NCBI GenBank assembly: GCA_009838195.1
Contig: VXSC01000022.1
Coordinates: forward strand, 1-64,000
DNA: 64,000 nt
Source of the DNA: Rhodothermaceae bacterium
Lineage (GTDB): Bacteria > Bacteroidota > Rhodothermia > Rhodothermales > Bin80
Reading direction: 5' to 3'
Under the pieces are notes generated by a model. That model searched no databases. It saw only the letters and a list, made by a program, of their open reading frames with translations, and had not been told where the DNA came from. Each line of letters opens with the position of its first letter. Position 1 is the first letter of the stretch. This document shows, in pieces, positions 2,536 through 37,803 of the stretch. The translations under genes were made by a program, and so were the position numbers.

Positions 2536-2781
2536 AAGCCTTAGCCTGTTGTGTGATATTGGTGTTTGCATTTGATATCCCGATTGTCGCAAACATAAAC
2601 TTCTGGAATACATCGGCAACTGCCCCAGCCCCACCAATTAATGTTCATCCCTTCCGAATTTGCAGTGGGGATGCGTCAGAAACCAAAGTCTCGAGAAACT
2701 GTACAGCGTCTTTCCATGGTGAAGTTCTTCCCATGCTAATAATTCCCGTAATTATTAATTATTCAGATAGAGATACCAGTG

Positions 2782-4308
2782 ATGATGGATAGATCAAAGT
2801 CACATGTCCAGCACAGGAACGACTACCATGTGAGGGTGAAAAATTTTGGTCCAATTGCTGAAGGTAGTATTGATATTCGGCCTCTGACGGTTTTTGTGGG
2901 TCCGAGTAATACCGGGAAATCGTACTTAGCCACGCTCATTTACGCGTTGCATCGTTGTTTTGCCGCGGATTTAGATGAAACCCCATACAGCTACGCTTGG
3001 AGAATCAGGTCCTCAGGACTCACAGACGAAATCATATCTGATCCAGATATCAAGGAATATCTTGATGCATGGATTTCAAGCGTAAAAAAACAAGATGACA
3101 TGCCCTCGTTCTCAGGGCCAGTTGAGGATGTGATCCGCTCTATGGTTGAAGAGACGGGGGATATGGAAATGTATATAGAGAGAGAATTATATCGGTGTTT
3201 TGGGCTAGAAGCCATTAGAGAACTGATCAGACGGCCCCGAGCACAGTCAGCTGAAGTCATAATAGATCTTCATCGACGAGAGGAACGATGCAATATGCAA
3301 TATCGATTAGGAATTCGTCGTAACGAGTTCAATGTGACCGGTAAGGTAATAGGTTCCAAGCTGCCTTCTCCCGATTTACGGCGATCGCGGGAAGGTATTG
3401 TGCTCCGCAGAAGAATGTATAGTGTACGTAGATCCTCCAAACGTGATGTATTCGATTCTCGGCCTTTGTTGATGTTGGCCGTTATGACGCGGAATGCTCT
3501 GACGAGTTTGCTTAGAAGGCGTGCCTACTATCTACCCGCGGATCGTACTGGTGTCATGCACAGCCATCAAGTTGTTGTTAGTACATTGATCCAGAATGCA
3601 ACCAAAGCTGGACTACGCCCTGCCGTCAATGTGCCCACATTGTCGGGTGTCCTAGCCGACTTCCTCAATCAGCTCATTCAGATGGCAAGTGGGCACGGAT
3701 CTAAGGGGCATGAGAACGGTGACTTACTGGCATCACGGGTGGAGGAGACAGTATTAAGAGGTGGAGTTAACATCGATGCTTCTGAGGCAAACTACCCGCA
3801 TTTTTTTTACAAACCTGAAGGTTGGAAGGCGAAATTGCCTCTGATGCGATCATCGTCTATGGTATCAGATCTGGCGCCAATGATCCTATATCTTAGACAC
3901 GTCGTAAGACCTGGTGATGTAATTATTATTGAAGAACCGGAGTCGCATCTACATCCGGCAATGCAGATCGAAGTGATTCGTCGCTTGGCGGAGATAGTGC
4001 GTTCTGGTATTCAGGTAATTGTTACGACACACAGCGAGTGGGTGTTGGACGAGCTGGCCAATATGGTTCTGAGCTTTCGAAAAGGGGAATCTGAGCAGGC
4101 ATTCGTGAACAAGGCGACAGATAGTCTCAATCCGCGTGAGGTTGGTGTATGGTCGTTCGGACATCAGGAGACTTCTGAAGGAGTGGTTATTAAAGAACTG
4201 GAGTTAGATAAATCGGGCTCATATCCTTCTGGCTTTGACCGTGTGGCCGTTGATCAGCACAACCGATGGGTTGAAGCAGTTGGTGGAATTGAGTTTATGG
4301 ATGAATGA
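2782..4308 (+). CDS. AAA/ABC-type ATPase (AAA_15/AAA_21, OLD-like core) of a two-gene system
   Basis: This ~508-residue predicted SMC/ABC-class ATPase has Walker A GPSNTGKS near residue 40-47 after a VKNFGPIAEGSIDIRPLTVFV strand. It has a signature-like SSSMVSDLAPMILYL stretch, Walker B with catalytic glutamate (VIIIEEPESHLHP, ~380-391) and an H-loop VTTHSEWVLDEL (~414). A ~300-residue insertion with many Arg/Lys lies between Walker A and B. There is no TOPRIM domain, unlike full OLD or GajA proteins. GTG 2779, ATG 2782 and ATG 2785 are all possible starts. The next gene begins inside its stop codon (ATGA overlap at 4305-4308), so the two are translationally coupled. The likely role is a sensor/motor for the partner nuclease in phage or plasmid defence. 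The fold is certain; the role is inferred. Confidence 0.88.
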   Translation: MMDRSKSHVQHRNDYHVRVKNFGPIAEGSIDIRPLTVFVGPSNTGKSYLATLIYALHRCFAADLDETPYSYAWRIRSSGLTDEIISDPDIKEYLDAWISSVKKQDDMPSFSGPVEDVIRSMVEETGDMEMYIERELYRCFGLEAIRELIRRPRAQSAEVIIDLHRREERCNMQYRLGIRRNEFNVTGKVIGSKLPSPDLRRSREGIVLRRRMYSVRRSSKRDVFDSRPLLMLAVMTRNALTSLLRRRAYYLPADRTGVMHSHQVVVSTLIQNATKAGLRPAVNVPTLSGVLADFLNQLIQMASGHGSKGHENGDLLASRVEETVLRGGVNIDASEANYPHFFYKPEGWKAKLPLMRSSSMVSDLAPMILYLRHVVRPGDVIIIEEPESHLHPAMQIEVIRRLAEIVRSGIQVIVTTHSEWVLDELANMVLSFRKGESEQAFVNKATDSLNPREVGVWSFGHQETSEGVVIKELELDKSGSYPSGFDRVAVDQHNRWVEAVGGIEFMDE

Positions 4309-4757
4309 GTCTGAGTGAGGAGATACGGAATGAATTTAAGGAAACATGCATTGTTGACGAAATGGAACGGCCGGAATGCACCTTATGCTTGCGTGGTACT
4401 CCAAGACCATTCCTGTTCATAGATCTTGACCTTCCTGGTTCACCGTTGGGCCCAAGCGATAAACGGTGTGATTTTCTTGCGTTTGTAGACAATGTTGCGG
4501 AAATGCCATGCGTGGCACCAGTGGAGTTTAAATCAACTTGGCGAAAAGAAATATTTGGGCAACTCCAGGCCGGTGCAATAGAAGCAGAAAAATATATTCC
4601 CACTCAGTTGGAATGCCGATTTCGACCGATTGGCGTACTCAACGATTTTCCGAAGGGCCGAAGAAAAATGATTCGGAGGCGTGTATCATTTCGGGACCGG
4701 TCTGAGCCCATACGGCTCATCTTATGTGGTGACAAGCTCATTCAGGCTCTATCATAG
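4305..4757 (+). CDS. Small predicted PD-(D/E)XK nuclease partnered with the AAA ATPase
   Basis: This 150-residue protein overlaps the upstream ATPase gene by ATGA. No named family was recognised, but the core fits the PD-(D/E)XK fold. An N-terminal helix with acidic residues leads to a beta strand with D56 (KRCDFLAF). Then comes the EFK motif (PVEFKS, E74 and K76), followed by a helix with a Gln (FGQLQAGAIEA), typical after the catalytic strand. A basic patch near residues 117-127 (KGRRKMIRRR) could contact nucleic acid. Its size suits a single-domain effector nuclease activated by the ATPase. An alternative is a non-catalytic adaptor, as the assignment rests on motif spacing alone. About 230 bases after its stop hold nothing I recognise before HerA copy B. 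Confidence 0.72.
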   Translation: MSLSEEIRNEFKETCIVDEMERPECTLCLRGTPRPFLFIDLDLPGSPLGPSDKRCDFLAFVDNVAEMPCVAPVEFKSTWRKEIFGQLQAGAIEAEKYIPTQLECRFRPIGVLNDFPKGRRKMIRRRVSFRDRSEPIRLILCGDKLIQALS

Positions 4758-6251: not shown

Positions 6252-9200
6252 TCAAAGTCTCCGTACTTCCCGCTCCTGGTCTCGAATGATCTCTCGCTCG
6301 AAATAGTCCAGAACCCTCCTACGCATCTTTTCGGCCCATAGGCGTACTCTGGGTTTTGTATGAGTCTCAAGGTATCGGAAAACTTTCTCTAAGCGAGAGT
6401 AATGGTCAGCACATGAATCAATCCAGTGGTAAGGATGAATGTGACTTTCCAATGCCATTTGCACATCGTTACGCTCCCCGAAGTCATCCAGTAGTCGAGA
6501 CATTACAGGATGGAGGCTGGCATAGCCGATTTTGTCTCCTTCCTTGGAGAGAAAAGGGACACACTGAGCCAAAAATGCAGGAGCACCATCTGGATTCACA
6601 TGGCACCAAACGAACAATATGTCTTTGGGAACATCTAGGATCGGTGGATTGAAATCACGCTCAAGGATGTACGGCTGGCCCAGAAAAAATCTCATGCGGT
6701 TCGCGAACTGAGGATTCTCTAAAATGGATCCTCCGACAATCGGCCAAACAATATCTGGAAAACCTGTTAGCATTCTGTTAAGCACAGAATCCGGCTTGGC
6801 CCTAGCCGGATAAAACAAGTCATACTGATCTCCGCGGGTAAGAGCTCTAGCAAGCTGTAGAGCCGTAGTGCAAGCATCAGAATCCTCGCGGCCTTTAGCC
6901 AGCATTGGGCGAATAATCTTTTTGAAGTGATATTCTACCATGTCTGGTTGAATTCCAGACATCTTTACCTGCGGAGGGGGCCTGAATTTCGCCGTGTCCC
7001 AACGACCGGCATTGTAAATCATTTTTTGAAGTTGGGGCCGAAAATCTACTATTTTGAAAATATGCGGTTTGGCTCTTCCCTTACTTTTTTCATCTTCTTC
7101 ACTATCAAGAATCCGGCCCAACATGGTGACTGCAATCGCGTAGGACGGAGCACCATGGTCAAGCATTACGTCAAGAAACAGTGAAAGCTTGTCAGGTGAG
7201 ACATCTTTAAGCACCCGTGTGGAGGCCCAACGGTGCAGATCCCATGGTGCCAAAGTACCTCGATTCAGAGCGTCTATAGCATGGTCAATGTCTTGGGGCT
7301 TAAGACCGGCTCGGCCGCAAATCATTGGAACGACTGGAGCGAGATCGGGCGATTCAATCGCCCTCATCTTGAATTCTTCAACCGCATCCTGAAATATCTC
7401 TGGGAGGCCCGCAACAAATCCCACAAGTAGATCATAATTCCGGTTGGATGCAGGGACATCTTTTACGGCTTGGGCAATTGGTTCTAGCCATGTGAGTGGT
7501 AACGGTGTACACTCCGCAAGTGCGTTCCCGAGTTCATCAGCTATAAATTGTCTTCCTTGACTGATCTTGGGCAGGATTTCCTTGAGAGTTGATGAATCCT
7601 GCACCAGCTCGATGGCCAATGATCGGGCGATGGTATGACGGTGCTGATATTCCTCCTCGCCCGAACGTTTCTTGTCCGTGGATTCGGGCATGGGAGGTTC
7701 GGTCACTTGAAGCCGAACTCGTTTCCGAAGGCTTTTCGGCTCAAGCTTATTAACTAAAGACCGAACCCTGTTTAACGTACTATCATCAATACCCTCTTTG
7801 TCGTAGGTGAGAACAACCTTCAATTGTCGAAGTGCCATGGTCCAAGAATGGCCCTCATGAACAACCACGGAAATAATTTTCTCCACATCCTCAAGGAATC
7901 CGTCATCAACCAGAGATGAAATTGAGCGGCCGAGATCCGAACGAGCCTTCTCCCCCACATCGTCGTTTCGCATTGCAAGCTCTCCAAGTAGCTTTACGCA
8001 TCCCAAGCAATATTCATCCCTTTCTTGATTTGAGGCTGGAAGCCATGATTCCAATGCTCTTCGAGAACCCTGAATTTCTGGTCCTACCATGCGGAAATAC
8101 TTCTTCATCATCTTGCTGCCCTCGTCCAGAGCATCAACGACATATTTTAGTTGTTCTTTATCGCTCGTTTCACTCGACTCATCAATCATCTCATCAAGAA
8201 ACAAGAGTCGAGTTTTGCCATCTGCTTCAGTACCTCCAAGCACAGGTGAGAAGAGTTTTGCGAAGTGCTGAGAAGTATCTGGAGGCCAAGAGTATGGTTT
8301 AGAGACCTCTAATCGGAGTAGAAGCCGAGCGCCGACCTTGAAGGATTCTGAGTGGAAGGCGATTATTCGCGACATTCTGACAAGAATACTATGCACAACT
8401 TCTCCATGCAGACTCAGATCGTCTAGGCGGTCTATGTACGGCTTAATCCGTTCGGCGACAGCAGATGAATTAATCTCAGCTAGGGCTGATAGTACCTCTG
8501 CACGATCTGAAAGATGAATACTATTCATCTGGTCGAAGGGACCTTTTGCCCGTAACACATGAGCCGCCACGGTTTTGGCAATCTCCGTGGCATTTAGTTC
8601 AGCGAGACGCCTAGCCGCAGAGACATTGAGGTCAGGGCCAATGTCGCCTGTTAATACCCGATCCCATTTCTCTTGACTCCAGTCGATCCATTGTCGCTCA
8701 GCAAGCCTGACGGCAATGGGGCGCGGTTCAAGCGTCGCCAATCCTCCTCTACGCTTGACGATACCTCGTTGGATGAGCCGTTGAATTCCTTTATATAGTT
8801 CATCAAATTTGAGTCCAAGTTTTGCGATTTTTTCGAGATGGCCCTTATCAACAGACTCCTTTATTGCAACACGATACTCCTTCTCCACAGGCTCAATTCG
8901 TATTGTTCCAAATACCGCGAGTAGTTGAGCTGAATCAAGCAATAGATTGTTATCCCTTGAACCCCTGCCACACACGTATTTGTCTATGAACGCACCATCG
9001 GCAGGATCTATAAGGTGCTTTCCCATGTCAAATTCCTTAGTGATTCGGATCGCGACTTCCGGGAATCCATCCGACAAATGTGCAAGGCGATCCTGATCCA
9101 CGCTCAACATTGTGTTGGCGACATCTTCAACGATAGATTTGATTACTTCCGTGGGAGCATTGTCGATGTAATGGGTGTTCGAACTGATTCGTTCTGGAAT

Positions 9201-10400
9201 CTCATTGTGAATGGTAATTAGTGAAAGACAGCTATCGGTATGGGATATAATTCTGTCCAGCTTCGCATGTACTTGGGGATCACAGTCGTCCACGACCACT
9301 ATAGCCCGTTCTCCAGAGATTGCTAATTTCTCGACGATCCGAATGAGTGCTTGCGGACTTTCTTCACGTTGTTCCGTGTACATGACAAAGTCCCGAGGCG
9401 GATGATCAGCAACTTCGTGTTTGCTCAGCCTATCCAGAGCCACAAGGCAAAGTCGAGACTTACCGATTCCTGATAATCCGACCACCCGTAGAACTCCGTG
9501 AGGTTTGGTTATAGAAATCTCAAGCCTTTTGATAAAGTTGCCTAAACGGGGATCTTCTACCCAAGTAACCGAATGCTCACTTCGGCTATTCCATTGTTTC
9601 CAAGTAGAAAAGCCTTCAAGTGGACCGTGTCCTACCTCTTCCCGAATCCAGAGGGCAACCGCTGGATGGATGTTTACCCACTCGGCGATTTTGTTGGCAT
9701 CCCAAAACCAGACTTGTTGTTCCATGTCTACTAATCCAGCCTGCCCCAGAGCTGTGCAGATGGCCAGTTTACGTTTCTCTATCTGCTGTTGGTTGTAGTG
9801 CTGTGCACAAAGCATGATGTAGCTCCCCCCGCTCCCAAGAACTGAACGAACCATTGGCTTAACTTCTCCCATTCGAGTAAGAACTTCCTTGAATGCTTGG
9901 CGCGGATAAATTTTTCCAGCCTTCAATTGAAATTGACAGAGACGTGATGGTAGAAATGGGGTGTGCGCGGGGCCATTCTGCCACGAAATTCGTCCATCTT
10001 CCCCTCCATCTGGCACATTGATATTGCTTGGGACTGAGATTCCGTTCAATGGAATATTGAACCTTGTTGCTTCCGCATTCAGTAGCCGTCGCAATAGCTG
10101 GGACATTGGTCCTGGACCCACGCAAGCGATGTCAGCACCAGCTACTTTAAAGGGGCTGACTACTTCGTGGTGGGTCAGTGAAGGTTTCTCGCCCTTTAGA
10201 GTCGAAAGAATGCTTGGATCAAGATCCAGTATCCGCAACAAATTGACCACGGCCTTGTTTGGTTTAATACTACCAGCTTCGTATTTCGCGAATGCACGCG
10301 GACCGCCTCCCAACAACTTGCCGGCTTGTTCTTGTGAGAGCCCAAGTTTTTCACGAATGGCCCGTATATGCTCTGGAGCAAAAATCTCGAAATTATCCAT
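6252..10400 (-). CDS. HTH-nuclease-STAND NTPase fusion, predicted defence sensor/effector
   Basis: About 1382 residues from ATG 10400. The longer frame would start at TTG 10439, inside the likely operator, so ATG is preferred. Domain order: (1) residues ~1-65, an MqsA/YgiT-like helix-turn-helix (REKLGLSQEQAGKLLGGG, then FAKYEAGSIKP and AVVNLLRILD). (2) ~90-250, a PD-(D/E)XK-like nuclease with PDGGEDGR (~130-137) and QLK (~158-160), the QxK variant seen in Cap4/DUF4297-type enzymes. (3) ~285-600, a STAND-type NTPase with Walker A GLSGIGKS (~308-315) and Walker B AIVVVDDCD. (4) A long helical C-terminus without clear motifs, probably the ligand sensor. The layout resembles Avs antiviral STAND proteins, but with a DNA-binding domain fused in front. 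Expected action: recognise an invader component, oligomerise, cut DNA. The function is inferred. Confidence 0.8.
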   Translation of the reverse strand: MDNFEIFAPEHIRAIREKLGLSQEQAGKLLGGGPRAFAKYEAGSIKPNKAVVNLLRILDLDPSILSTLKGEKPSLTHHEVVSPFKVAGADIACVGPGPMSQLLRRLLNAEATRFNIPLNGISVPSNINVPDGGEDGRISWQNGPAHTPFLPSRLCQFQLKAGKIYPRQAFKEVLTRMGEVKPMVRSVLGSGGSYIMLCAQHYNQQQIEKRKLAICTALGQAGLVDMEQQVWFWDANKIAEWVNIHPAVALWIREEVGHGPLEGFSTWKQWNSRSEHSVTWVEDPRLGNFIKRLEISITKPHGVLRVVGLSGIGKSRLCLVALDRLSKHEVADHPPRDFVMYTEQREESPQALIRIVEKLAISGERAIVVVDDCDPQVHAKLDRIISHTDSCLSLITIHNEIPERISSNTHYIDNAPTEVIKSIVEDVANTMLSVDQDRLAHLSDGFPEVAIRITKEFDMGKHLIDPADGAFIDKYVCGRGSRDNNLLLDSAQLLAVFGTIRIEPVEKEYRVAIKESVDKGHLEKIAKLGLKFDELYKGIQRLIQRGIVKRRGGLATLEPRPIAVRLAERQWIDWSQEKWDRVLTGDIGPDLNVSAARRLAELNATEIAKTVAAHVLRAKGPFDQMNSIHLSDRAEVLSALAEINSSAVAERIKPYIDRLDDLSLHGEVVHSILVRMSRIIAFHSESFKVGARLLLRLEVSKPYSWPPDTSQHFAKLFSPVLGGTEADGKTRLLFLDEMIDESSETSDKEQLKYVVDALDEGSKMMKKYFRMVGPEIQGSRRALESWLPASNQERDEYCLGCVKLLGELAMRNDDVGEKARSDLGRSISSLVDDGFLEDVEKIISVVVHEGHSWTMALRQLKVVLTYDKEGIDDSTLNRVRSLVNKLEPKSLRKRVRLQVTEPPMPESTDKKRSGEEEYQHRHTIARSLAIELVQDSSTLKEILPKISQGRQFIADELGNALAECTPLPLTWLEPIAQAVKDVPASNRNYDLLVGFVAGLPEIFQDAVEEFKMRAIESPDLAPVVPMICGRAGLKPQDIDHAIDALNRGTLAPWDLHRWASTRVLKDVSPDKLSLFLDVMLDHGAPSYAIAVTMLGRILDSEEDEKSKGRAKPHIFKIVDFRPQLQKMIYNAGRWDTAKFRPPPQVKMSGIQPDMVEYHFKKIIRPMLAKGREDSDACTTALQLARALTRGDQYDLFYPARAKPDSVLNRMLTGFPDIVWPIVGGSILENPQFANRMRFFLGQPYILERDFNPPILDVPKDILFVWCHVNPDGAPAFLAQCVPFLSKEGDKIGYASLHPVMSRLLDDFGERNDVQMALESHIHPYHWIDSCADHYSRLEKVFRYLETHTKPRVRLWAEKMRRRVLDYFEREIIRDQEREVRRL

Positions 10401-10406
10401 AATGAC

Positions 10407-10417
10407 ACCATAGTGGT
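10407..10417. promoter_or_regulatory. Candidate operator palindrome ACCA-TAG-TGGT before the STAND gene
   Basis: A perfect 4+3+4 inverted repeat lies 7 bases upstream of ATG 10400. MqsA-family domains bind short palindromes at their own promoters. The fused HTH could therefore repress its own gene here. Position and symmetry are seen; binding is inferred. Confidence 0.4.
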
Positions 10418-10439
10418 AACTTTTACTAAAATATATCAA

Positions 10440-11050: not shown

Positions 11051-11926
11051 ATGAGAGTTCAAACTTCAGTATTTGAAGAATTTGGGACGTCAACGATTCC
11101 TGCAGCCAACGTGTCTAGCGTACCGCAGCGAAGCCCTCTTAGGTACCCTGGAGGGAAAACGTGGCTTGTGCCCCATATACGTAAATGGCTTACGGATCCT
11201 GTTGACACTCTTATTGAGCCATTTGCTGGCGGTGGGATTATTTCATTGACAACTGTGATGGAGGGGTTTGCTAAACGAGCTCTTATGGTCGAAATCGATC
11301 AAGATCTGTCTGCCTTCTGGAGGGCGGTACTGGATGATCCAGAAGAGTTGATTGAACGCATTCAATCCTTTGCCTTTGATCGTACAGAGGTTGAGCGTTT
11401 AACCAAGAGAGTACCTAGCAGTGATCTTGACCGTGGATTTCGAACCCTTGTTCTCAACCGCACTCGATATGGAGGAGTCTTGGCGCCTGAGGCCTCGCTA
11501 ATAAGAAGCGGTGAAAATGGCGCTGGTATCGGTTCCCGGTGGTACCCTGAAACACTGGTGAACAGGGTGAGAAATATTGCCCGGTATTCGGATCAACTTT
11601 TGTTCTGCGAAAGTGATGGTGTGCGCTTGCTGGAGTTACAGTCTGATCGACCCGAGACCGCTTTTTTTGTAGATCCACCGTACACGGCGAAAGGGGGAAA
11701 GCAAGCGGGCTCCCGTCTCTACACTCATAACACAGTAGATCATGCTCGTATTTTTGCCACTCTGGCTAGGAGCCGCGCGAACTTTCTGATGACTTACGAT
11801 TGTTCTTCCGAGATCATCAGAATGATTCGAAAACACAAATTTCATGCTGCTCTCGTAACGATAAAAAATCTTCACCACTTAAAGGTACCCGAATTGATCA
11901 TCACGCGTGACAAACTGTTCACCTGA
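11051..11926 (+). CDS. DNA adenine methylase, D12 (Dam-like) class
   Basis: A 291-residue N6-adenine methyltransferase of the Dam/DpnM type. The SAM-binding motif PLRYPGGK is at residues ~29-36, the acidic-loop motif LIEPFAGGG at ~54-62, and the catalytic DPPY (FFVDPPYT) near residue 208. The length matches the family (~260-300). It transfers a methyl group from SAM to adenine in a short DNA site; the site cannot be read from sequence. It is the first gene of an apparent three-gene operon with a ParB-like protein (42 bases later) and a predicted nuclease-fold protein. In that setting it more likely protects self DNA than acts as a housekeeping Dam. Confidence 0.93.
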   Translation: MRVQTSVFEEFGTSTIPAANVSSVPQRSPLRYPGGKTWLVPHIRKWLTDPVDTLIEPFAGGGIISLTTVMEGFAKRALMVEIDQDLSAFWRAVLDDPEELIERIQSFAFDRTEVERLTKRVPSSDLDRGFRTLVLNRTRYGGVLAPEASLIRSGENGAGIGSRWYPETLVNRVRNIARYSDQLLFCESDGVRLLELQSDRPETAFFVDPPYTAKGGKQAGSRLYTHNTVDHARIFATLARSRANFLMTYDCSSEIIRMIRKHKFHAALVTIKNLHHLKVPELIITRDKLFT

Positions 11927-11967
11927 ACGTTTGAAATCGTGAAGTGAGACGTCAAAATTCATAATGT

Positions 11968-13062
11968 TTGTCTCATCAACCTAAAAGCTCACAGCCGTCT
12001 ATGGACCTCCATAATATTCCTCCATCCGACCTCCACCTTGATCCGAAAAACCCACGGATCGGGTTCGAGAAATTCTCCTTAAACGACCAACAAGGTATCC
12101 TGCACTGGCTCTGGCGAAACAATTCGGTGGACGAATTGGTGAATTCTATTCTGGCCAATGGCTATTGGAAGCATGAGGAACTGTTCGCGACAGACGAATC
12201 GGGAAAGCTTGTTGTAGTTGAAGGCAATCGACGTCTTGCAGCTGTAAGAATTATCTCGGATGCCCCTCTGCGAGGGAAATTAGGCGTTAAACTGAATGAG
12301 GAGCCTTCGCCAAGAGTTCTTGAGACCATTCAAGAACTTCCAGTAATCTTAGCACCGCGAAAGGAGTTATGGAGTTTTGTCGGTTTTAAGCATGTTAACG
12401 GGCCACAGGCTTGGGATTCCATAGGTAAGGCTGAGTACGTATTCAATGTGCGGACCAACTTCGGTATGACCCTCGCTGAGATTGCGTCGGGGATCGGCGA
12501 TCGTCACGAGACAGTGACCCGCCTTTACCGGGGGTATGTAGTCCTTCGACAAGCACAGGATCAATTGGCTTTTGATATAACTCAGAGCGAACACTTGCGA
12601 TTCCCGTTTTCCCATCTGTGGACTGCACTGGGCTATGCGTCCATCCAAGGATACCTAGGGGTTAATTCTAAGACACTTGAGAATGAAAATCCTGTTGAAA
12701 AGGGTCGATTGTCACGACTTGATAACCTGATGAACTGGCTCTACGGGAATCGGGCCAAAAACATTGAGGCAAAGGTGCGTCGACAAAATCCAGATCTCCG
12801 TCATTTGGCGCGTGCTCTTGAAAAGCAGAAAGGTATAGATCTGTTGGAGTCAGGAAGTCCACTTTTGGCAGCATTGGAGGCTTCACTTGGTGACAAACAC
12901 CTGTTTCGAAATGCACTCACAAAAGCAGATAACAGTGCGAGGGAAGCTATGCAATATGTATCCACGGGATTTGATGGCGAACATGATTTGATCGCAACCA
13001 TGGAGAGTCTCCATAGGCAGGTAGAGTCGCTTAAATCTCTCATGGAACGTGGTGCTTCATGA
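11968..13062 (+). CDS. ParB/Srx N-terminal domain protein in the methylase operon
   Basis: About 364 residues if translation starts at TTG 11968; ATG 12001 would give 353. The first ~110 residues match the ParB-like nuclease fold: DLHLDPKNPRIG, VDELVNSILANGYWKHEELFA and the hallmark VVVEGNRRLAAVRII. The remainder is helical. It lacks a clear ParB centromere-binding module and has no ParA neighbour, so a role in chromosome partition is unlikely. ParB/Srx folds bind nucleotides (CTP) and occur in several modification and defence proteins. Its stop overlaps the next start (ATGA at 13059-13062), indicating coupled translation. It probably acts with the methylase and the following protein, which is inference. 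Confidence 0.82.
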   Translation: MSHQPKSSQPSMDLHNIPPSDLHLDPKNPRIGFEKFSLNDQQGILHWLWRNNSVDELVNSILANGYWKHEELFATDESGKLVVVEGNRRLAAVRIISDAPLRGKLGVKLNEEPSPRVLETIQELPVILAPRKELWSFVGFKHVNGPQAWDSIGKAEYVFNVRTNFGMTLAEIASGIGDRHETVTRLYRGYVVLRQAQDQLAFDITQSEHLRFPFSHLWTALGYASIQGYLGVNSKTLENENPVEKGRLSRLDNLMNWLYGNRAKNIEAKVRRQNPDLRHLARALEKQKGIDLLESGSPLLAALEASLGDKHLFRNALTKADNSAREAMQYVSTGFDGEHDLIATMESLHRQVESLKSLMERGAS

Positions 13063-13979
13063 CAGTGGAAGTGAACCCAAGTTCACCGGTTGAAGAGATC
13101 GCCGACACAATAGAATGGATCTGCGTAAAGGACTCTAACGGCTACCTTTCGTGGGCTGAAGTGGTCAGCGACCTGAGACTTCTCTACTCAGGTAATGAAG
13201 CAACCGCCATTTACGGTAAGTCTGGCTTTCAGCAGTCCAATACAGAGACCTTTGAACTTATTCTGGAGGAATGGGTCGAGGTTCTTTCCTATCGGTTTCA
13301 GGCCTGCGGATCCGGTGATGGATATCCGTTCAATATCACCAAGCAGGGACTTGAATTTCGTGGAAAAGATTGTCCTGCGTATTTATTTCAGCTTCTCGTA
13401 TCTCTCGGCAAGAATGACCGCCATCCTGATGGAACTGCTGTTCCCAAATTGTTTGAGGAACTGAGTGCGGCAGCTGCCGGTAGGTATCTAGGAGATAGCA
13501 AGACGTGTTTAGTGTTTGGATTCCCACGGAGTGATCTTCCTAAGGGATTTCGTGATGCAGTTAACCGATTGGTGGAATTCTTGAACGAGGGGAAGGCATG
13601 TAGAAGTCGCCGAGGGCTCGATGAAGTAAAGGATGATGGTCTTGACGTTGTGGCGTGGAGAGAATTTCCCGACCGAAAAGCTTCAAAGCTGATCTTGTTT
13701 GGCCAATGTGCGACTGGTCAGCATTGGCAAAAGAAGGCGCACGAATTGCTGCCGGACAATTGGTGCAAAAGAAACTTAGTGGACTCTCCTGCTGTGAATC
13801 CAGTGCCAGCATTTTTCGTCCCGAGGGCCCTATCGGAAAAAGATGCTGGACTGGCTGGAATCAATCAGGTTTTACTTGATCGCTGTCGTATTTCGGCATT
13901 GTGCTCAGGAAAATTAAGTGGCCAGTTGAAGAAGAGGCTTTGGGCCTGGATTGACTCCTCCTGTAGTACCCAGAGCTGA
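13059..13979 (+). CDS. Predicted restriction-nuclease-fold protein, third gene of methylase operon
   Basis: This 306-residue protein is not a named family I recognise. The N-terminal ~180 residues look like a helical recognition region. The C-terminal part has a PD-(D/E)XK-like pattern: KDDGLDVVAW (D192-W200), then the strand LILFGQCATG (Q216) and W223 with K225/K226. The usual (D/E)xK appears as QCA, so the catalytic lysine may have migrated, or the domain may be a degenerate nuclease. The DGxDVVAW and GQCATG blocks look like real conserved motifs. With the methylase and ParB-like genes it fits a modification-dependent or modification-protected restriction system. Its activity is inferred. 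Confidence 0.68.
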   Translation: MTVEVNPSSPVEEIADTIEWICVKDSNGYLSWAEVVSDLRLLYSGNEATAIYGKSGFQQSNTETFELILEEWVEVLSYRFQACGSGDGYPFNITKQGLEFRGKDCPAYLFQLLVSLGKNDRHPDGTAVPKLFEELSAAAAGRYLGDSKTCLVFGFPRSDLPKGFRDAVNRLVEFLNEGKACRSRRGLDEVKDDGLDVVAWREFPDRKASKLILFGQCATGQHWQKKAHELLPDNWCKRNLVDSPAVNPVPAFFVPRALSEKDAGLAGINQVLLDRCRISALCSGKLSGQLKKRLWAWIDSSCSTQS

Positions 13980-14521: not shown

Positions 14522-16276
14522 TCAACCTGTTTTTTCTTGGGCGATTGTAGAGTTAATACCAAGATGGTTTTCCATCCTGGCGAGTAGCCGTTCACGGCGA
14601 GCCTCATAAAACACATTAAAGCCGGTAATATCTTTGGGCACTTCGCCAAGATCGTGCAGTCTCCGATGTTCAGCAGCTGTTTTATCATCTTCCATTTGTG
14701 CAAGCCATTCGTACGGGAGTGTTGCACCCTTTGCCTGATTTGGCCCCCCAGGAAGTAATTGAAGATTGGGGAGTCGATCTACACGGTCCATGAATATCGG
14801 AATTTTATCTTCTGGCACACCGGCATCCCCTAAGCTCCTCGGCGTAAATCGGCTCTTGGGAAATATATGGTCAATGTGGAATTGATGATGCTCGATATCA
14901 ACGATGGGGTACAGGGTCGAGAGCAGGGCAAATGCGCGATCCTTGGATTCTGCCAGATCCTGTAACTCCTCTGATTCAAACGCAAGACGGCCTCCCCTAC
15001 GAAGTATTACCTCTTCAATCTTCGCATATGGGAAGCCGCTATGGCCATGTTCGTCAATTACCTTTCTGAGCCGGGTGAGTAGCGAATCTTGATTACCGGA
15101 CCACATAGTACGCTTCAGTAAGGATCGGGTAATCCATTGACGAATACATGCCCTGTCCCCGTCTGACTTACCAGACCTGCCGTGTTTACGGAAATAGTAA
15201 GCGACGGGCAGGACTACAGAGTGAGCCGTCAGGGTCGGGCGCGAATACCCGTAATCGCGCAAAAGCCTCGCAGCAGAATAGACGGCGTCTGTGATATCTT
15301 CCCACTGCTCATTAATGCTTTCAATGTGGTCAATCGTAAAGTTGCTGACCTTGAAATCAATACTACTGATTCCTGCAAGAAGGAAAGCAGCCTTGAGGAG
15401 GAAATCTCGGGAAAATCCAAACTCTCCTACTTGGGGACCATTGATTTTCCGAACTGATCCATTGATGTCATCTCTCGCATTTCCATTCCAGTGTGCGGTT
15501 GCTATGCTCATTAGCATGTCGGAACGGTTGAGTGTCATTCCTCCGCTATTGGTGCGGATAAATATATCAAGAACCCGGTCAATATCCTGACTAGTCTCTT
15601 GGTAGAATGAAATCACCGGTTTGACATGAACAACTTCACGGAGTTGTTGAAGTATCTCTGTCGGTTTATCCAAGTCCTCCAATGTCATGTGGCCGAGATG
15701 CTGTTGAAGGTATTTATTGGGGTCGTTAGGCCCTTTGAACTCCATGACGTTACAGACTGGGTACCAGAATTGAGACTCGTCCTGTCTCTCGGCTTCCTTA
15801 TTGGTCAGGAAACGGAAGTCATATTTCATCCCATGATCATTTTCTGGGGCATCCTGAAATAAGTTCAGATAGAGTTGGCGGACCGGGAATGCGTCGGGGT
15901 TGTCCCACCATAGGCGCGGAAGCTTGTAGGCATATGTTCCATTCAAAGCGATATTCAGTGCCGTAAGACGTTGCTGACCATCAAGAACAGCGGTGACAGT
16001 TTCCTTGGTGGATACTTTGGCTTTACGAGCATTTGGAGAATCCTTCTGATGGTAGTCGATTCTAAAATCATAGAACTGAAACTTCCTTATACTTTCGGAC
16101 CTGACCTCCCAGAAGAGGAATGATCCAATTGGATAATTGCGCATGAGGCTGTCAAAGAGTCTTTCGATTCTATGCGTCGGCCAAACAAATTCTCGCTGAA
16201 TTGCAGGGAGAACATACTCCCTATTCTGAATGTGCTTGATTGCCTGGTAGATTGTAATCGGAACCTGAAATGCCAT
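14522..16276 (-). CDS. DUF262 plus DUF1524 (GmrSD-like) protein
   Basis: About 584 residues from ATG 16276 (a TTG directly before it is less likely). The N-terminal DUF262/GmrS-like domain shows LPAIQREFVWPTHRIERLFD (~24-43) and the ParB-fold nucleotide motif VLDGQQRLTALNIAL (~97). The C-terminal DUF1524/HNH-type nuclease region shows FHIDHIFPKSRF (~460) and later LPNLQLLPGGPNQAKG. By family knowledge, GmrSD-type proteins are NTP-dependent type IV restriction enzymes against modified phage DNA; other members act in different defence roles. Length is typical of one-chain versions. It is convergent with the methylase operon. Confidence 0.9.
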   Translation of the reverse strand: MAFQVPITIYQAIKHIQNREYVLPAIQREFVWPTHRIERLFDSLMRNYPIGSFLFWEVRSESIRKFQFYDFRIDYHQKDSPNARKAKVSTKETVTAVLDGQQRLTALNIALNGTYAYKLPRLWWDNPDAFPVRQLYLNLFQDAPENDHGMKYDFRFLTNKEAERQDESQFWYPVCNVMEFKGPNDPNKYLQQHLGHMTLEDLDKPTEILQQLREVVHVKPVISFYQETSQDIDRVLDIFIRTNSGGMTLNRSDMLMSIATAHWNGNARDDINGSVRKINGPQVGEFGFSRDFLLKAAFLLAGISSIDFKVSNFTIDHIESINEQWEDITDAVYSAARLLRDYGYSRPTLTAHSVVLPVAYYFRKHGRSGKSDGDRACIRQWITRSLLKRTMWSGNQDSLLTRLRKVIDEHGHSGFPYAKIEEVILRRGGRLAFESEELQDLAESKDRAFALLSTLYPIVDIEHHQFHIDHIFPKSRFTPRSLGDAGVPEDKIPIFMDRVDRLPNLQLLPGGPNQAKGATLPYEWLAQMEDDKTAAEHRRLHDLGEVPKDITGFNVFYEARRERLLARMENHLGINSTIAQEKTG

Positions 16277-16650
16277 CAAATATTCAATGATTTATCGAAA
16301 GGTAAGAATTTACTGCTGCAGCCATCAAAATAATTTCCCAATCCTGTACTCCGGACGATTGGATTTCAGAGACGACCTGTTGAGTGAGGTTTTAATCGTA
16401 TCTGAAGACGAGTTCCTCGAGTGCATCCACATCAAGCATCTGGGTTTTTCGAAGGAAATGTGGCCCTTATATCTGCTCATCGGATTGCAGGTTTGACATC
16501 ATCCTCGCGTACTAACCAATTAGGCTCCTTCCTCGTTGCTGACACCTCTGCCAGTATCGAGAGAGGCCCCAACCCTGCGGTTTACTCAATAGCTCGTTGA
16601 TGACCTTTTTCTGTATGCCAGAGCCATCTATTGCATGGGTAGGTTTTTCG
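16277..16650. other. Intergenic, nothing identified
   Basis: About 370 bases between two minus-strand genes. A 69-codon plus-strand frame at 16287 has no recognisable feature. The region probably carries the DUF262 promoter on the minus strand, but no clear motif was seen. Confidence 0.4.
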
Positions 16651-18821: not shown

Positions 18822-21800
18822 ATGAAGAAAAGATACTATTTCCTTGTTCTTTGCATGTTGCTGTTCCCAGGGTTGGCAAATGCTCAGAGCGTAATTTCCG
18901 GAACGGTTACAGATGACACAGGTGAGCCGCTCATCGGAGCAAATGTGCTCATCGAGTCACTAGTGATCGGTGCATCCACCGACCTAGATGGGACGTACAC
19001 GTTTCAGGTTCCTTCTGATCATGTTGGAGAAACGCTGGATTTGACCGCTCGTTACGTTGGATTCGTAGAGCAAGTGCGATCCATTACAGTCAGCGAAGGC
19101 ATCATGACGGAAGACTTCGTCTTAGAGGTAGACTTCCTTCAGCTGGGCGACATAGTCGTTACGGGGGTCGCGGAAGCAACGCCGAGGAAGAAGTTGGCGT
19201 TCACAGTAAGCCAGGTGGACGGTGAAGACATTACGTTGGCGCCTGCAACCAATCCGGTAGCATCCATTCAGGGAAAGGTTGCCGGAGTTGCCGTTATGGC
19301 CGGTAGTGGGGCGCCTGGCGCTACCTCTTCCGTGCGTTTGCGGGGTGCAACCAGTATCACTGGTAGCAACCAGCCACTTTACATCGTGGATGGAGTTGTT
19401 CTCGGCGCGAACCAGGTTGACTTTGACGCGCTGGATATTGCGGACATTGAAATTGTTAAGGGAGCGGCTGCCTCATCGCTCTACGGTTCACGGGCCCAGA
19501 ATGGTGTGATCAATATCACAACGCAACGTGGTTCGGCGATGCCCCTCAATCAAACGCGGGTGACGGTCCGCAATGAATTTGGGATTAGTGATGTTGCCAA
19601 AAGCCTGCAAGCCAATACTTCGCATGATCTGCAGGTTGATGCATCGGGGAACTTCGTGGATGGCACGGGCGCGATCAATACCTGCCCCAATTGTTTGGAA
19701 AATGGATACGGTCCTGGGGTTATTCAAGAGGTCAACCCTCATGGTGCTGCTTTCTTCGACAATCCGTATCAGGGTACGTTGCACAACGGTTTTGATGACT
19801 TCTTCGACCCTGGCAATACTTGGATAAATTATGTCGGTGTAAGCCAAAACAGTTCAAAAACAAACTTCTTGGCATCTTTTACGAATGTTGCTGAGCAGGG
19901 ATCGGTTCTGAGCCTCGAAGGTATGAAGAGGAGGAGTTTTCGTGTAAATCTTGACCACCGAATTCGACCAAACCTGACCGTTTCGACCTCTGGATTTTAC
20001 TCCCAGACAGAAAACGATGGCGTCACTGGTGTACCGGGATCAGGTGCATTTTTCAATCCGTTCTTCGGCCTGATGTTTACTAATCCATTGGTAAATCTAA
20101 CTGAACGGGATGAAGCGGGCGATCTAAAAATTCAGGCGGATCCACTCGCGGTCGAGGAAAACCCACTCTACCTGCTTGAGAATACAGATATTTCACGATC
20201 ACGGTCACGTCTTCTCGGTAATTTCCGTGCACGTTGGAATCCGCTGGATTGGCTGAATCTTGAGAGCAATTTCAGTTATGACCGTTCGGATCGCGACGCA
20301 ACGGAGTTCTATGATATTGGATTTCAGTCAATAGATCCATCATCTGTCAATAATGGTCGCATTGAGCGGCGCAACGAAGTTGCTGAGGCAATCAACTACG
20401 ACTTGACCGTGTCTCTTCGGAAACAGTTCGGAGATTTTGCGACACGTGGTCAGCTGAAAGCTCAGATAGAGAATTTTGACTCTTTCTCGGAATTTATTAT
20501 TGGGACCAATCTGGTAACATTGGGGAATAGTGACCTCTCCAATGTAAAGCAATTCTGCACAGAGCCGGGATGCGATGCTGGTAGTAGAGACTTCGGAAAC
20601 GGATTCTCAACAGTTCGGTCGGAAGGGTACTATGCAACCGCAGGCCTGGATTACCAGGACAAGTATATCGTGGATGTTTTCTTCCGCTATGATGGCAGTT
20701 CGCTGTTTGGAGCCGAAGAGCGCTGGCAGCCCTATTATCGTGGAAGTGCCGCGTGGCGGGTTTCCGAAGAGTCATTCTGGCCAGCAAATAACCCAATCAC
20801 CGAACTGAAACTGCGTGCGTCTATCGGGACCGCCGGTGGCCGCCCTGGATTCCAGGCGCAGTATGAGGTACTTTCCCTGGGAAATGGTCAGCTTTCCAAA
20901 TCGACCTTGGGAAATGCATTCCTAAAGCCGGAATTGCAGACAGAAATGGAGTTTGGACTTGATGTAGGCGTTCTTGACCGGATCTTCCTTGAGTTGGTGT
21001 ATGCCGATACACAGGTTGAAGATCTGCTCCTCGCTGTTCCGCTCGCCGGATATTATGGGTTTAGCAGCCAGTGGCGGAATGCTGGTGATTTGGCTTCCAA
21101 TACCATTGAGGCCAGTGTGAATGCGAGCGTCTATAGTTCAAGGGATATGGATTTTGAGGTTGGAGTTATCTTTGACCGTACTCGCCAAGAAATCACTGAT
21201 TTCAATTCCAATCCCTATGTAGGTGGTCCTCAGAGTCTATACTTTTTCCGTGAAGGTGAAATCCTCGGAAGCATGTATGGAAACGAATTCATCACGGATC
21301 TCTCCAGGCTCCCATCCGATGCCGACGCAAGCTTCTTTGATGTCAATGATGATGGGTATGTGGTCGCGGTTGGCCAAGGTAACACCTATGCCAGTGGTCC
21401 AGGCTCGGATGGTGTCCTAGGTGGAGCAGACGATCTTTGGGGGACGCTGGTGAACGTAAATGGAACGAATTACCGCTGGGGAATCCCCATCAAGTACTAT
21501 GACGAGGCAAACGAGACAGATCAGGTCCAAATTGGAAATGGGCTTCCTGACTTCAGTCTTGGATTCAACACGACGTTCCGCTACAAAGGATTCTCACTCT
21601 ACATGTTGTGGGGTGCGCAGATTGGAGGTGATGTCTATAACTTCACCAAGCAATGGGGATACCGCGATGGTCGTAATGCAGATCAGGACCAAGGAGGGAA
21701 AGAAGAAAGTATGAAGAAGTCAACGACCTACTACGAAGTCCTCTACGATGCAACGGCGAAAAACAGTCACTTTGTAGAAGATGCCACGTATCTCAAGCTG

Positions 21801-22034
21801 CGCGAGCTTTCGGTAGGGTACACACTCAATCGCCAGCAGCTTTCTCGGGTCTTCGGCAATGTGCTGCATTCCCTCTCCGCAAGTATCATCGGGCGCAATC
21901 TGCTCACCTTTACTGGATACTCTGGATTTGATCCTGAAGTAGGAGCAGGGTCCGATCCGACACTCTATCGCGTAGACAGTTTCAATTACCCGCCGCTCCG
22001 TACGATTCGGGCGAAATTGGAATTCCAATTTTAG
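18822..22034 (+). CDS. SusC/RagA-family TonB-dependent outer-membrane transporter
   Basis: 1070 residues with a clear signal peptide (MKKRYYFLVLCMLLFPGLANAQ). A carboxypeptidase-D-regulatory-like beta sandwich follows (~24-105: ISGTVTDDTGEPLIGANVLI, DLDGTYTFQVP). Then comes the SusC-type plug (DIVVTGVAEATPRKK, VASIQGKVAGVAVM, SSVRLRGATSITGSNQPLYI) and a ~850-residue beta-barrel ending in an aromatic residue (KLEFQF). It takes up oligosaccharides or other oligomers across the outer membrane using TonB energy. The plug-signature wording and length are standard for the family. The susD partner starts 15 bases downstream. The substrate is not evident; neighbouring CRTAC1 proteins do not settle it. 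Confidence 0.96.
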   Translation: MKKRYYFLVLCMLLFPGLANAQSVISGTVTDDTGEPLIGANVLIESLVIGASTDLDGTYTFQVPSDHVGETLDLTARYVGFVEQVRSITVSEGIMTEDFVLEVDFLQLGDIVVTGVAEATPRKKLAFTVSQVDGEDITLAPATNPVASIQGKVAGVAVMAGSGAPGATSSVRLRGATSITGSNQPLYIVDGVVLGANQVDFDALDIADIEIVKGAAASSLYGSRAQNGVINITTQRGSAMPLNQTRVTVRNEFGISDVAKSLQANTSHDLQVDASGNFVDGTGAINTCPNCLENGYGPGVIQEVNPHGAAFFDNPYQGTLHNGFDDFFDPGNTWINYVGVSQNSSKTNFLASFTNVAEQGSVLSLEGMKRRSFRVNLDHRIRPNLTVSTSGFYSQTENDGVTGVPGSGAFFNPFFGLMFTNPLVNLTERDEAGDLKIQADPLAVEENPLYLLENTDISRSRSRLLGNFRARWNPLDWLNLESNFSYDRSDRDATEFYDIGFQSIDPSSVNNGRIERRNEVAEAINYDLTVSLRKQFGDFATRGQLKAQIENFDSFSEFIIGTNLVTLGNSDLSNVKQFCTEPGCDAGSRDFGNGFSTVRSEGYYATAGLDYQDKYIVDVFFRYDGSSLFGAEERWQPYYRGSAAWRVSEESFWPANNPITELKLRASIGTAGGRPGFQAQYEVLSLGNGQLSKSTLGNAFLKPELQTEMEFGLDVGVLDRIFLELVYADTQVEDLLLAVPLAGYYGFSSQWRNAGDLASNTIEASVNASVYSSRDMDFEVGVIFDRTRQEITDFNSNPYVGGPQSLYFFREGEILGSMYGNEFITDLSRLPSDADASFFDVNDDGYVVAVGQGNTYASGPGSDGVLGGADDLWGTLVNVNGTNYRWGIPIKYYDEANETDQVQIGNGLPDFSLGFNTTFRYKGFSLYMLWGAQIGGDVYNFTKQWGYRDGRNADQDQGGKEESMKKSTTYYEVLYDATAKNSHFVEDATYLKLRELSVGYTLNRQQLSRVFGNVLHSLSASIIGRNLLTFTGYSGFDPEVGAGSDPTLYRVDSFNYPPLRTIRAKLEFQF

Positions 22035-22048
22035 GTGAGGTGACCCAC

Positions 22049-23677
22049 ATGAAATCTAAACACATCAAGCAAATGAAGCAATTTACATTTTATACGCTGG
22101 TCGGTGTCTTGGCGCTCGGTGCAGTGGGTTGTCAGGATCTGGTTGTGGAAAACAAGAACTCACCGGACAGATCGGTTGCCTTCGCGCAACCTGGCGATGT
22201 CGTGAACCTGGTATCAGGTACGTGGCTTGATTATTGGTCTAGTGTCCAGTATTGCAATTCGCTCTTTTATTCAACTATAGCAGATGAGAACTCGTCTTCC
22301 TGGGCAAACTGGGGGATGCGGGATATGTCCAGCGAACCTCGTATTGGTTGGGATAACAGTGCAACCTATAGCCGCAGAGGCGCCACTCAAGGGCCTTGGT
22401 TTGGTCATTACAGGGGCATCTCAAATGCCAATGATGCACTGCAGGCGATTATTCGGGCTGAAACAGAAGAGAGTGCGGACAATAACGTGTTCACCCGTGA
22501 CGGCCATGACACAGCACAACTGAAAGCATTTGCAAAAATGAATCAGGGGTTGATGCATGGGATGCTCTCACTGCACTTTGACCAAGCGTTTGTGTTTGAC
22601 GAGACCGTGGATCTGGACAATGACGTACTCGAGCTGCGTCCCTACGCGGAGGTGAACCAGGAGGCGATCCGAATGCTGGAAGAAGCGCGTGCAATCGCAA
22701 GTGCAAACTCGTTTTCGATACCCTGGATCTGGGGACTGGAATTGAGTTCCCAGGACATGGTCAAACTGATCAACTCGTTCATTGCACGGTTCACGGTTCA
22801 GGTCGCACGGGATGAAGCCGAGCGTGCCGCGGTGAACTGGGGCAATGTCATCGGGCTCATAGATGCCGGGATTACCGAAGATTTTGTACCTGTCGGGGCT
22901 GATGATGGGGATCAACAGTTTGACTGCCTGAAGCACTTTGGTCAACAGGGAACCACCTGGAGCAGAGCTGATTATCGCACGATTGGTCCGGCTGATGAGT
23001 CGGGGGGCTATGATGACTGGCTGGCAAAGATGAATGCAGGGGACTATCGATCCGTTCGGGTGTTTAATATCGTCACGGCAGATCGCAGGATTGTTGGTAG
23101 TGCCGATGATCCTACGGTGGATGGGACAGATTTTCAGTATCAGGGGAACAATGGTCCATTTCCGGCCGCTCGCGGTTACTACCACTTTTCAAGCCACAAC
23201 CATAAGCGGTATCAGTATTACCTCTTGGCGGATGCAAATGGCCCCATGCCACACATGATCCTCACGGAAATGCACATGTACAAGGCGGAGGGTTTGTTGC
23301 GCAGTGGTGGCAGTACGGATGAAGTTGCTGAGTTGCTTAACATCACGCGAGTGTCGCGGGGACAACTGAATCCAGCTATGGGATCGGATGCTGCGGGTTC
23401 CTCAACAGATGCGCAGAGTCACTTGGATTCCGCAAGCCTGTGGGCTAAGCTAAAGCATGAGCGCCGGATTGAGACCTTCCAAACTGCAGGAGGGTTAGCC
23501 TATTTCGACGACCGCGGGTTAGGGGATCTCGTTACAGGAACGCCAGTCCATTTCCCTGTGCCCGGCAGGGAGCTGGAAACGCTGGGTCTGCAGAATTATA
23601 CGTTTGGTGGCGTTGGAGGAGTCGGAGGTGCGCCGATCGCTGGTCGATTTGAAACCGACAATAGTCGACCGCGCTGA
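22049..23677 (+). CDS. SusD/RagB-family nutrient-binding outer-membrane lipoprotein
   Basis: About 542 residues from ATG 22049, which has an AGGTGAGG ribosome-binding site 8 bases upstream; the in-frame GTG 22040 lies inside that site. An N-terminal signal ends in a lipobox (LALGAVGCQDL), then VVENKNSPDR typical of SusD-type starts. TPR-like helices follow and a C-terminal segment with KLKHERRIETFQTAGG, the RagB signature region. It caps the SusC barrel and captures substrate at the surface. The length (~540) is normal. It is followed by a strong terminator, so susCD form one unit. Confidence 0.94.
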   Translation: MKSKHIKQMKQFTFYTLVGVLALGAVGCQDLVVENKNSPDRSVAFAQPGDVVNLVSGTWLDYWSSVQYCNSLFYSTIADENSSSWANWGMRDMSSEPRIGWDNSATYSRRGATQGPWFGHYRGISNANDALQAIIRAETEESADNNVFTRDGHDTAQLKAFAKMNQGLMHGMLSLHFDQAFVFDETVDLDNDVLELRPYAEVNQEAIRMLEEARAIASANSFSIPWIWGLELSSQDMVKLINSFIARFTVQVARDEAERAAVNWGNVIGLIDAGITEDFVPVGADDGDQQFDCLKHFGQQGTTWSRADYRTIGPADESGGYDDWLAKMNAGDYRSVRVFNIVTADRRIVGSADDPTVDGTDFQYQGNNGPFPAARGYYHFSSHNHKRYQYYLLADANGPMPHMILTEMHMYKAEGLLRSGGSTDEVAELLNITRVSRGQLNPAMGSDAAGSSTDAQSHLDSASLWAKLKHERRIETFQTAGGLAYFDDRGLGDLVTGTPVHFPVPGRELETLGLQNYTFGGVGGVGGAPIAGRFETDNSRPR

Positions 23678-23698
23678 CCCACGCTCAGTTTGATGAGA

Positions 23699-23736
23699 TG
23701 AAGGGGGCAGTGCTCATATGGGAACTGCCCCCTTCA
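23699..23736 (+). terminator. Hairpin terminator after susD
   Basis: A perfect 13-bp stem (23699-23711 with 23724-23736; AAGGGGGCAGT type) and 12-base loop, followed by a weak T-rich stretch. It lies 22 bases after the susD stop and separates susCD from the lipoprotein/CRTAC1 genes. Confidence 0.75.
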
Positions 23737-23774
23737 TATTGTTGACCAATCACCACTATACGGATAGAACCCTG

Positions 23775-24266
23775 ATGAACCGATCAATTTTTTGGATTTT
23801 GTGTTATGTCTTACTTGTGAGTGCCTGTTCTGGACCGGGTGCCGACAGTGAGCGGGCTGGGAACAGTACGTTCCGCTATAACCTCGGAACTTCTGCGCGG
23901 TGGCATATTGTCTCAACCGCCCAGGATGCTCTCCTCACCAGGTACGGATACCGCTTTAATCGAGAGGTCAACACTGCCGAGGATGTACGCCTGGAAACGT
24001 CATGGAGTGACATGACCACCTTTGCCGATGAACAGGCTGCTGGGTATGTGGAAGCCAGAGTACGCATCTTTGTCAATGCCCGTCCGCGTAACCGCGCAGC
24101 AGGGAACGCGAGCACGTTTTCTGCGCGCATGGAAGCCGAGTTTGAGGCCCGACTTTCGATGAATGGGAACTGGGAACCAGCAGCGATTACGGCCGAGCGG
24201 GAGGCTTATCTGGATGAGATTGCCAAATACCTTGAGAACGAGTTCAAGGCGGGGGTAATGCAGTAA
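23775..24266 (+). CDS. Small lipoprotein of unknown function
   Basis: 163 residues from ATG 23775; the frame extends upstream to 23718, but that would place the terminator in the gene. The N-terminus is a lipoprotein signal (MNRSIFWILCYVLLVSACSG). The mature part alternates beta strands and ends in helices (MEAEFEARLSMNG, EAYLDEIAKYLENEF). A repeated V-rich strand (GYVEARVRIFVNARPRN) suggests a small beta sandwich. I recognise no family. It lies 9 bases before a CRTAC1 lipoprotein on the same strand, so the two are probably co-expressed and share a location at the outer membrane. Confidence 0.75.
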   Translation: MNRSIFWILCYVLLVSACSGPGADSERAGNSTFRYNLGTSARWHIVSTAQDALLTRYGYRFNREVNTAEDVRLETSWSDMTTFADEQAAGYVEARVRIFVNARPRNRAAGNASTFSARMEAEFEARLSMNGNWEPAAITAEREAYLDEIAKYLENEFKAGVMQ

Positions 24267-24275
24267 TTCCTCTGG

Positions 24276-35636: not shown

Positions 35637-35640
35637 TCGA

Positions 35641-37794: not shown

Positions 37795-37803
37795 CACTGC
37801 ATC

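Follow-up and report, generated by a model that had tools for sequence, protein, structure and literature searches.

A ParB/KorB-like protein, a candidate PD-(D/E)XK nuclease and an exchangeable methylase point to a restriction-type defence cassette related to PD-lambda-5

Introduction

What do a DNA methylase, a ParB-like protein and a protein carrying the motifs DGLDVVAW and GQCATG do together when their genes lie side by side in a bacterial genome? The question is raised by positions 11,051 to 13,979 of a 64,000-base stretch of DNA, here called the window, from contig VXSC01000022.1 of Rhodothermaceae bacterium (GCA_009838195.1, a draft assembly of 48 contigs). An earlier reading of the letters, referred to below as the original prediction, had proposed a modification-based restriction system with a ParB-fold switch. 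The evidence now points to a relative of PD-lambda-5, a restriction-type defence that is widespread and has had no name so far; a three-part restriction-modification-like system acting on unmarked DNA is the best explanation of the genes and, in our judgement, probably the right one.

The ParB-nuclease pair and its homologues

Comparative evidence confirms the three genes (Table 1) as real and conserved. Substitution rates between the window and its nearest relatives (non-synonymous, dN, 0.16-0.28; synonymous, dS, 1.9-3.3 and near saturation) signify purifying selection on all three, and chance open reading frames (ORFs) were ruled out by the homologues and by dN lying far below dS. The genes are packed on the same strand as originally described; the ATGA coupling belongs to a single junction, that of genes 2 and 3, and genes 1 and 2 are spaced by 41 bases with TTG 11968 as the start of gene 2 or by 74 bases with ATG 12001, the start favoured by the nearest relatives.

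Back-translated scans with protein 3 alone found nothing in two collections and its alignment offered no usable stretch, so the survey was made through the ParB-like protein. Searching with ParB alone recovered 160 loci on viral and genome contigs from many phyla. A nuclease gene follows within 200 bases downstream on the same strand at 162 of 179 ParB hits, a figure that includes near-copies from P2-like prophages and two contigs counted twice and so does not represent independent events; the remaining hits are in many cases contig ends, broken gene copies or paralogues resembling PD-lambda-5_A. The tight junction seen between genes 2 and 3 recurs in most homologous loci. In the reverse direction, the nuclease profile gave four matches among 148 genomes of the phylum, three with a full-length ParB gene directly upstream and one at a contig end.

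Some of these loci show the pair in decay or in other company. At L020 (9488-10456), which lies on one contig with L108, a stop interrupts the nuclease gene and the methylase and ParB genes are intact, which fits an expectation that the cutting part decays first. Two genomes of the window's genus, represented by L021 and L022, carry decayed nuclease remnants near position 9000; in both, these occupy one and the same chromosomal site, close to the ATP synthase genes. ParB-nuclease pairs also stand behind Z1-domain genes in L005 (219-5702) and L002 (20-5684), linking the pair to Z1-type restriction neighbourhoods; L005 has in addition a DUF4420 PD-(D/E)XK gene, and L002 a C5-methylase-like gene upstream. 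A variant in L203 (1611-7856, minus strand) combines a ParB gene, a 285-amino-acid ORF, an ABC-type ATPase, a C5-like methylase and a further ORF that by eye resembles BsuBI/PstI enzymes.

Protein 3 and its putative active site

Protein 3 alone has no match in Pfam, NCBIfam or PADLOC, its family of 123 members has none in Pfam or PADLOC, and a search of solved structures with the family profile gave no meaningful match; it does match phrog_14650 (2.9e-20). An AlphaFold2 model built from 119 homologues is confident (predicted local distance difference test, pLDDT, 94; predicted template modelling score, pTM, 0.92). Residues 7-115 of the model align to winged helices (FOXN1, MukE, SelB, E2F), and the structural neighbours of residues 103-297, at Z 7.0 to 5.0, are dominated by restriction-type PD-(D/E)XK nucleases, comprising AF1548, SdaI (Z 6.7), PaqCI, MspJI, BsmI, Nt.BspD6I, FokI, Can2, Card1, AspBHI and NgoMIV. 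From the model we infer a winged helix joined to a PD-(D/E)XK nuclease domain with an alpha-beta-beta-beta-alpha-beta core, and nuclease activity is predicted accordingly for the family. The nuclease-like strand pattern noticed in the third protein is thus borne out by the modelled fold, and none of the described non-nuclease families against which it was checked matched.

The two motifs that first drew attention to the protein lie in the most conserved stretch of a family with more than 120 distinct homologues and therefore are not a chance pattern. In an alignment of 125 members, D196 is present in 124 of 124, Q216 in 120 of 124 and E or Q at position 133 in 118 of 125. Together with a lysine, these residues form the set found in PD-(D/E)XK restriction endonucleases, and E133, D196, Q216 and K226 are the putative catalytic residues of the window protein. 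Glutamine in place of glutamate is known from QxK nucleases such as MspJI.

The lysine is found at one of two places. Position 218, the lysine site of a QxK motif, is held by A in 61 members, K in 44 and G in 13, and position 226 is held by K in 82. Counted member by member over the 123 aligned proteins, the lysine is at 218 only in 42, at 226 only in 79 and at both in two; a dead nuclease was ruled out because every aligned member (123/123) keeps a lysine at one place or the other. On a gene 3 tree made without columns 218 and 226 the lysine state changes once, which argues for one relocation and not for repeated convergence; the two members with both lysines fall among the 218 group. With QCA at 216-218 and its lysine at 226, the window protein belongs to the relocated group, and K226, ten residues downstream of Q216, probably fills the role of catalytic lysine. 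The original prediction was right that the lysine of E-x-K is absent from this altered motif, and the doubt it cast on the active site falls away, since the lysine has moved to 226. Protein 3 differs from the known PD-(D/E)XK restriction endonucleases in this spacing of ten residues and not two, seen in two thirds of members, in its lack of a sequence match to any family of the three databases and in having an obligate ParB partner gene.

The ParB/KorB-like protein

The protein encoded by gene 2 has an N-terminal nucleotide-binding domain (E85-GNRR89), a central helix-turn-helix (HTH) region and C-terminal helices. Its AlphaFold2 model (pLDDT 95) matches ParB, Noc and KorB chains, with Foldseek E values to ParB/Noc down to 4.6e-6 and structural alignments at Z 10.4 over 200 residues to KorB and Z 9.0 to Noc; the sequence matches phrog_3694 (1.4e-67). 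All 94 non-redundant homologues keep the nucleotide motif of the superfamily, E85-G86-N87-R88-R89, and likewise D25, N28-P29-R30, H142 and W149. GFKHxxGxxxW, judged by eye, presumably stands in place of the usual ENLQR-type ParB motif. The model indicates a full ParB/KorB-type protein, with nucleotide binding predicted, and the ParB fold originally proposed is well founded. Like the ParB, KorB and Noc CTP-switch proteins, it holds a GNRR-bearing nucleotide-binding domain and an HTH region in one fold; unlike them, it is paired with a nuclease and a methylase, and no ParA was seen among its neighbours.

The methylase and its replacement

The protein encoded by gene 1 matches Pfam PF02086 at 2.5e-14 (54 bits, cut-off 22), and its best specific match is PADLOC PD-Lambda-5_B (PDLC04018; 2.2e-43, residues 27-289). 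The PFAGGG and DPPY motifs are intact. By these criteria it is a D12-class N6-adenine DNA methyltransferase. It had been called Dam-like, which holds for the D12 class but not for the Dam family proper: the score against TIGR00571 (dam) is 57.2 bits, under the curated cut-off of 114.85, and GATC specificity is therefore not to be assumed.

Across the survey the methylase is a neighbour of changing kind. A methylase gene stands immediately before or after the ParB-nuclease pair in 148 of 172 loci, so that methylase and endonuclease genes adjoin as in Type II restriction-modification, and within five genes of it in 155; the co-occurrence of the three genes elsewhere, which a neighbourhood survey was proposed to check, is thereby established. 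D12 methylases are found near the pair in 88 of the 172 loci, C5 in 45 and N4/N6 in 22 (families confirmed on representatives), and the class changes at least 12 times on the nuclease tree. In L023, from the window's genus, the methylase is 69% identical to that of the window, compared with 35% for ParB and 30% for the nuclease, indicating that the methylase and the ParB-nuclease pair are separable modules.

NotI-like genes also stand beside the cassette in L018 (11154-11822), L170 (5795-6679), L173 (9390-10274), L185 (8343-9224) and L089 (9293-10369). One member of this cluster is confirmed as PF12183 (1.1e-47), and most adjoin a D12 methylase of the window's kind.

Relationship to PD-lambda-5

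PD-lambda-5 was described by Vassallo et al. (2022) as a compacted restriction-modification plus abortive infection (RM+Abi) system (PMC9519451). Like the cassette, it is found in prophages and defence regions and combines a D12 methylase with a homologous ParB-like protein: the gene 2 protein is homologous to the first ~260 residues of PD-lambda-5_A-like proteins (hhalign 99.8%, E 4e-28). Residues 18-174 match positions 15-173 of the 473 in PADLOC PD-Lambda-5_A and no further; genuine PD-lambda-5_A-like proteins in some of the same loci match end to end, for example 1-446 against 1-465 of 466 (2.4e-142). PD-lambda-5_A has its own unrelated C-terminal part and no partner nuclease gene, whereas the cassette has a separate gene for the winged-helix PD-(D/E)XK protein after ParB and a methylase that may also be of C5 or N4/N6 type. 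Protein 3 showed no profile similarity to the C-terminal part of PD-lambda-5_A (hhalign probability 0.2%), and a link between the two was rejected; membership in PD-lambda-5 proper was rejected as well, gene 2 lacking that C-terminal part.

Judged from these comparisons, the cassette is a sister system of PD-lambda-5 in which a separate putative nuclease replaces the C-terminal part of PD-lambda-5_A. As a whole it is still without a name, as the original prediction had it; its parts can be named, the methylase being homologous to PD-lambda-5_B and the ParB domain to PD-lambda-5_A. The two systems also meet in single loci. The order is PD-lambda-5_A-like gene, one D12 methylase, ParB and nuclease in L134 (4487-9036) and L144 (422-4586), and ParB, nuclease, PD-lambda-5_A and D12 in L131 (7001-11436); in all three both kinds of ParB gene share a single methylase on one strand. 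In L167 (6088-10523) a PD-lambda-5_A-like gene and a ParB-nuclease pair lie side by side. The simplest picture is a modular family built from a ParB switch, a methylase and an effector, the last being either the C-terminal part of PD-lambda-5_A or a separate nuclease.

The PADLOC candidate PDC-M38A is also related in part, the ParB portion of gene 2 matching positions 50-341 of P0002. That model has 715 residues and its C-terminal part matches ATPase-like proteins and not a nuclease, so PDC-M38A was rejected as a ParB-nuclease fusion.

Proposed function

The structures and the neighbourhood support the originally proposed modification-based restriction system with a ParB-fold switch, with restriction as its predicted activity. 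In the cell's own DNA, the D12 methylase would mark adenines of a particular sequence. The ParB/KorB-like protein would bind DNA through its HTH region, with the nucleotide-binding domain as a switch, and engage or load on DNA whose sites carry no mark; it would then recruit or license the winged-helix PD-(D/E)XK nuclease, which would cut that DNA, presumably foreign. With the methylase exchanged time and again beside a pair that is conserved, more than one of the proteins is a candidate for reading the site. A more specific version is tentative: the ParB-type protein would be a nucleotide-switched clamp that itself reads self and non-self, loading at unmethylated sites, possibly sliding, and delivering the separate nuclease, a core that has taken up chemically different methylases on at least 12 occasions and that shares methylases with PD-lambda-5-type effectors.

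Several observations weigh against the restriction reading. All structural matches to the protein 3 model stay at or below Z 8 and no Foldseek hit reached E 0.001, so that the fold assignment leans on many coherent weak matches together with the conserved residues. The catalytic role of K226 is deduced from its reciprocal loss with K218, one event on the tree. In about 15 loci, several of which lie at contig ends, a methylase is missing from the neighbourhood, and a pair that works with at least three methylase classes would need a recognition that changes with each swap, or would have to read its site through the methylase.

The relationship to PD-lambda-5 suggests another outcome, in which the ParB switch responds to infection or to DNA without modification and the infected cell dies as the nuclease attacks its DNA, or nucleic acid generally, with the methylase as self-marker or inhibitor. 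The homologies of genes 1 and 2 to PD-lambda-5_B and the start of PD-lambda-5_A, the RM+Abi description of that system (PMC9519451), the methylase shared by both ParB kinds and their side-by-side placement all fit such an abortive system. We nevertheless consider it unlikely, since the effector is a restriction-endonuclease-type protein whose profile bears no relation to the C-terminal part of PD-lambda-5_A. Folds of this PD-(D/E)XK type usually confer direct immunity in restriction-modification systems. SdaI, among the best structural matches of protein 3, is a Type IIP enzyme and itself consists of a winged helix and a PD-(D/E)XK domain, so that protein 3 and the methylase could form an ordinary Type II pair next to which an unrelated ParB gene happens to lie. 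That arrangement is improbable: ParB is the constant partner of the nuclease and the methylase the variable one, and some relatives have a separate NotI-family enzyme beside the same type of methylase.

Still less probable is a ParB domain that is itself a nicking nuclease or a nucleotide-depleting nucleoside triphosphatase (NTPase), with protein 3 as an accessory DNA-binding or clamp-release factor. Nicking and NTPase activities have been reported for ParB/Srx domains, including non-specific nicking by a ParB-methylase fusion (PMC5512222, PMC12839542), but the full PD-(D/E)XK set of protein 3, with its lysine compensated in every aligned member, would be needless in a non-catalytic accessory. 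Least credible of all is an epigenetic or partition module without a defence function, in which ParB and the nuclease would control the methylase or serve the upkeep of a mobile element. The ParB fold and the frequent residence in P2-like prophages suit it; the lack of a ParA among the neighbours, the free exchange of methylase class and the defence genes around the cassette in the window do not, and the named chromosomal hosts are for the most part varied bacteria, not phages. Restriction of unmarked DNA remains our preferred explanation.

Occurrence and genomic setting

The cassette is present in Peduovirus 12474III (gp04, gp05, gp06), phage Wphi (orf98, orf96, mth) and Pseudomonas phage D14A, and P2-like phage and prophage copies adjoin the portal or replication gene. 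The Wphi and 12474III genes encode the same combination of ParB, hypothetical protein and DNA methylase, except that the Wphi methylase is annotated as cytosine-specific and lies on the opposite strand; neither record assigns a function to the ParB or hypothetical-protein genes. Copies in E. coli prophages are annotated as 'ParB N-terminal domain-containing protein', 'hypothetical protein' and 'DNA adenine methylase'. A literature search, with most subscription journals outside its coverage, found no paper describing the three-gene cassette as a system.

In the window the cassette is flanked by PD-Lambda-4-like and HEC-05/GmrSD-like genes, and together with an OLD/Gabija-like gene further out these suggest a defence island at this end of the window (Table 1).

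Table 1. Coordinates of the cassette and of other features of the window.
Feature	Position	Strand	Basis or remark
Gene 1, D12-class methylase	11051..11926	+	ORF, 291 aa (amino acids)
Gene 2, ParB/KorB-like	11968..13062	+	ORF, 364 aa from TTG, or 353 aa from ATG at 12001
Gene 3, winged-helix + PD-(D/E)XK protein ('GQC' family), predicted	13059..13979	+	ORF, 306 aa
ATGA overlap, genes 2/3	13059..13062	+	sequence
OLD/Gabija-like ATPase	2779-4308	+	best PADLOC match PD-T4-4_A, 4.1e-34
150-aa ORF after OLD/Gabija-like ATPase	4305-4757	+	4-base overlap with ATPase gene
Large HTH + STAND-like protein	6252-10439	-	PADLOC PD-Lambda-4_A match, 1.8e-74
GmrSD_N (DUF262) protein, weak HNH match	14522-16279	-	PADLOC HEC-05, 8.5e-201
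Tight operon of large proteins	18822-27905	+	1070/545/182/1209 aa; no PADLOC match at 1e-5
Tight operon of large proteins	31845-39582	+	1263/727/592 aa; no PADLOC match at 1e-5

Implications

The gene 3 family offers a clear case of a putative catalytic lysine moving inside one orthologous nuclease family, with two members carrying both positions. If the restriction reading is correct, many 'ParB N-terminal domain-containing' and 'hypothetical' proteins of prophages and genomes would belong to a defence system that current detectors miss; PADLOC covers the methylase and half of the ParB protein and not the nuclease. The copies in P2-like phages and E. coli make the cassette testable in laboratory strains. 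On the restriction reading, ParB proteins, so far familiar chiefly from the partition of chromosomes and plasmids, would act at the sensing step of restriction, and PD-lambda-5 would be one branch of a modular family with a ParB switch, a swappable methylase and a swappable effector.

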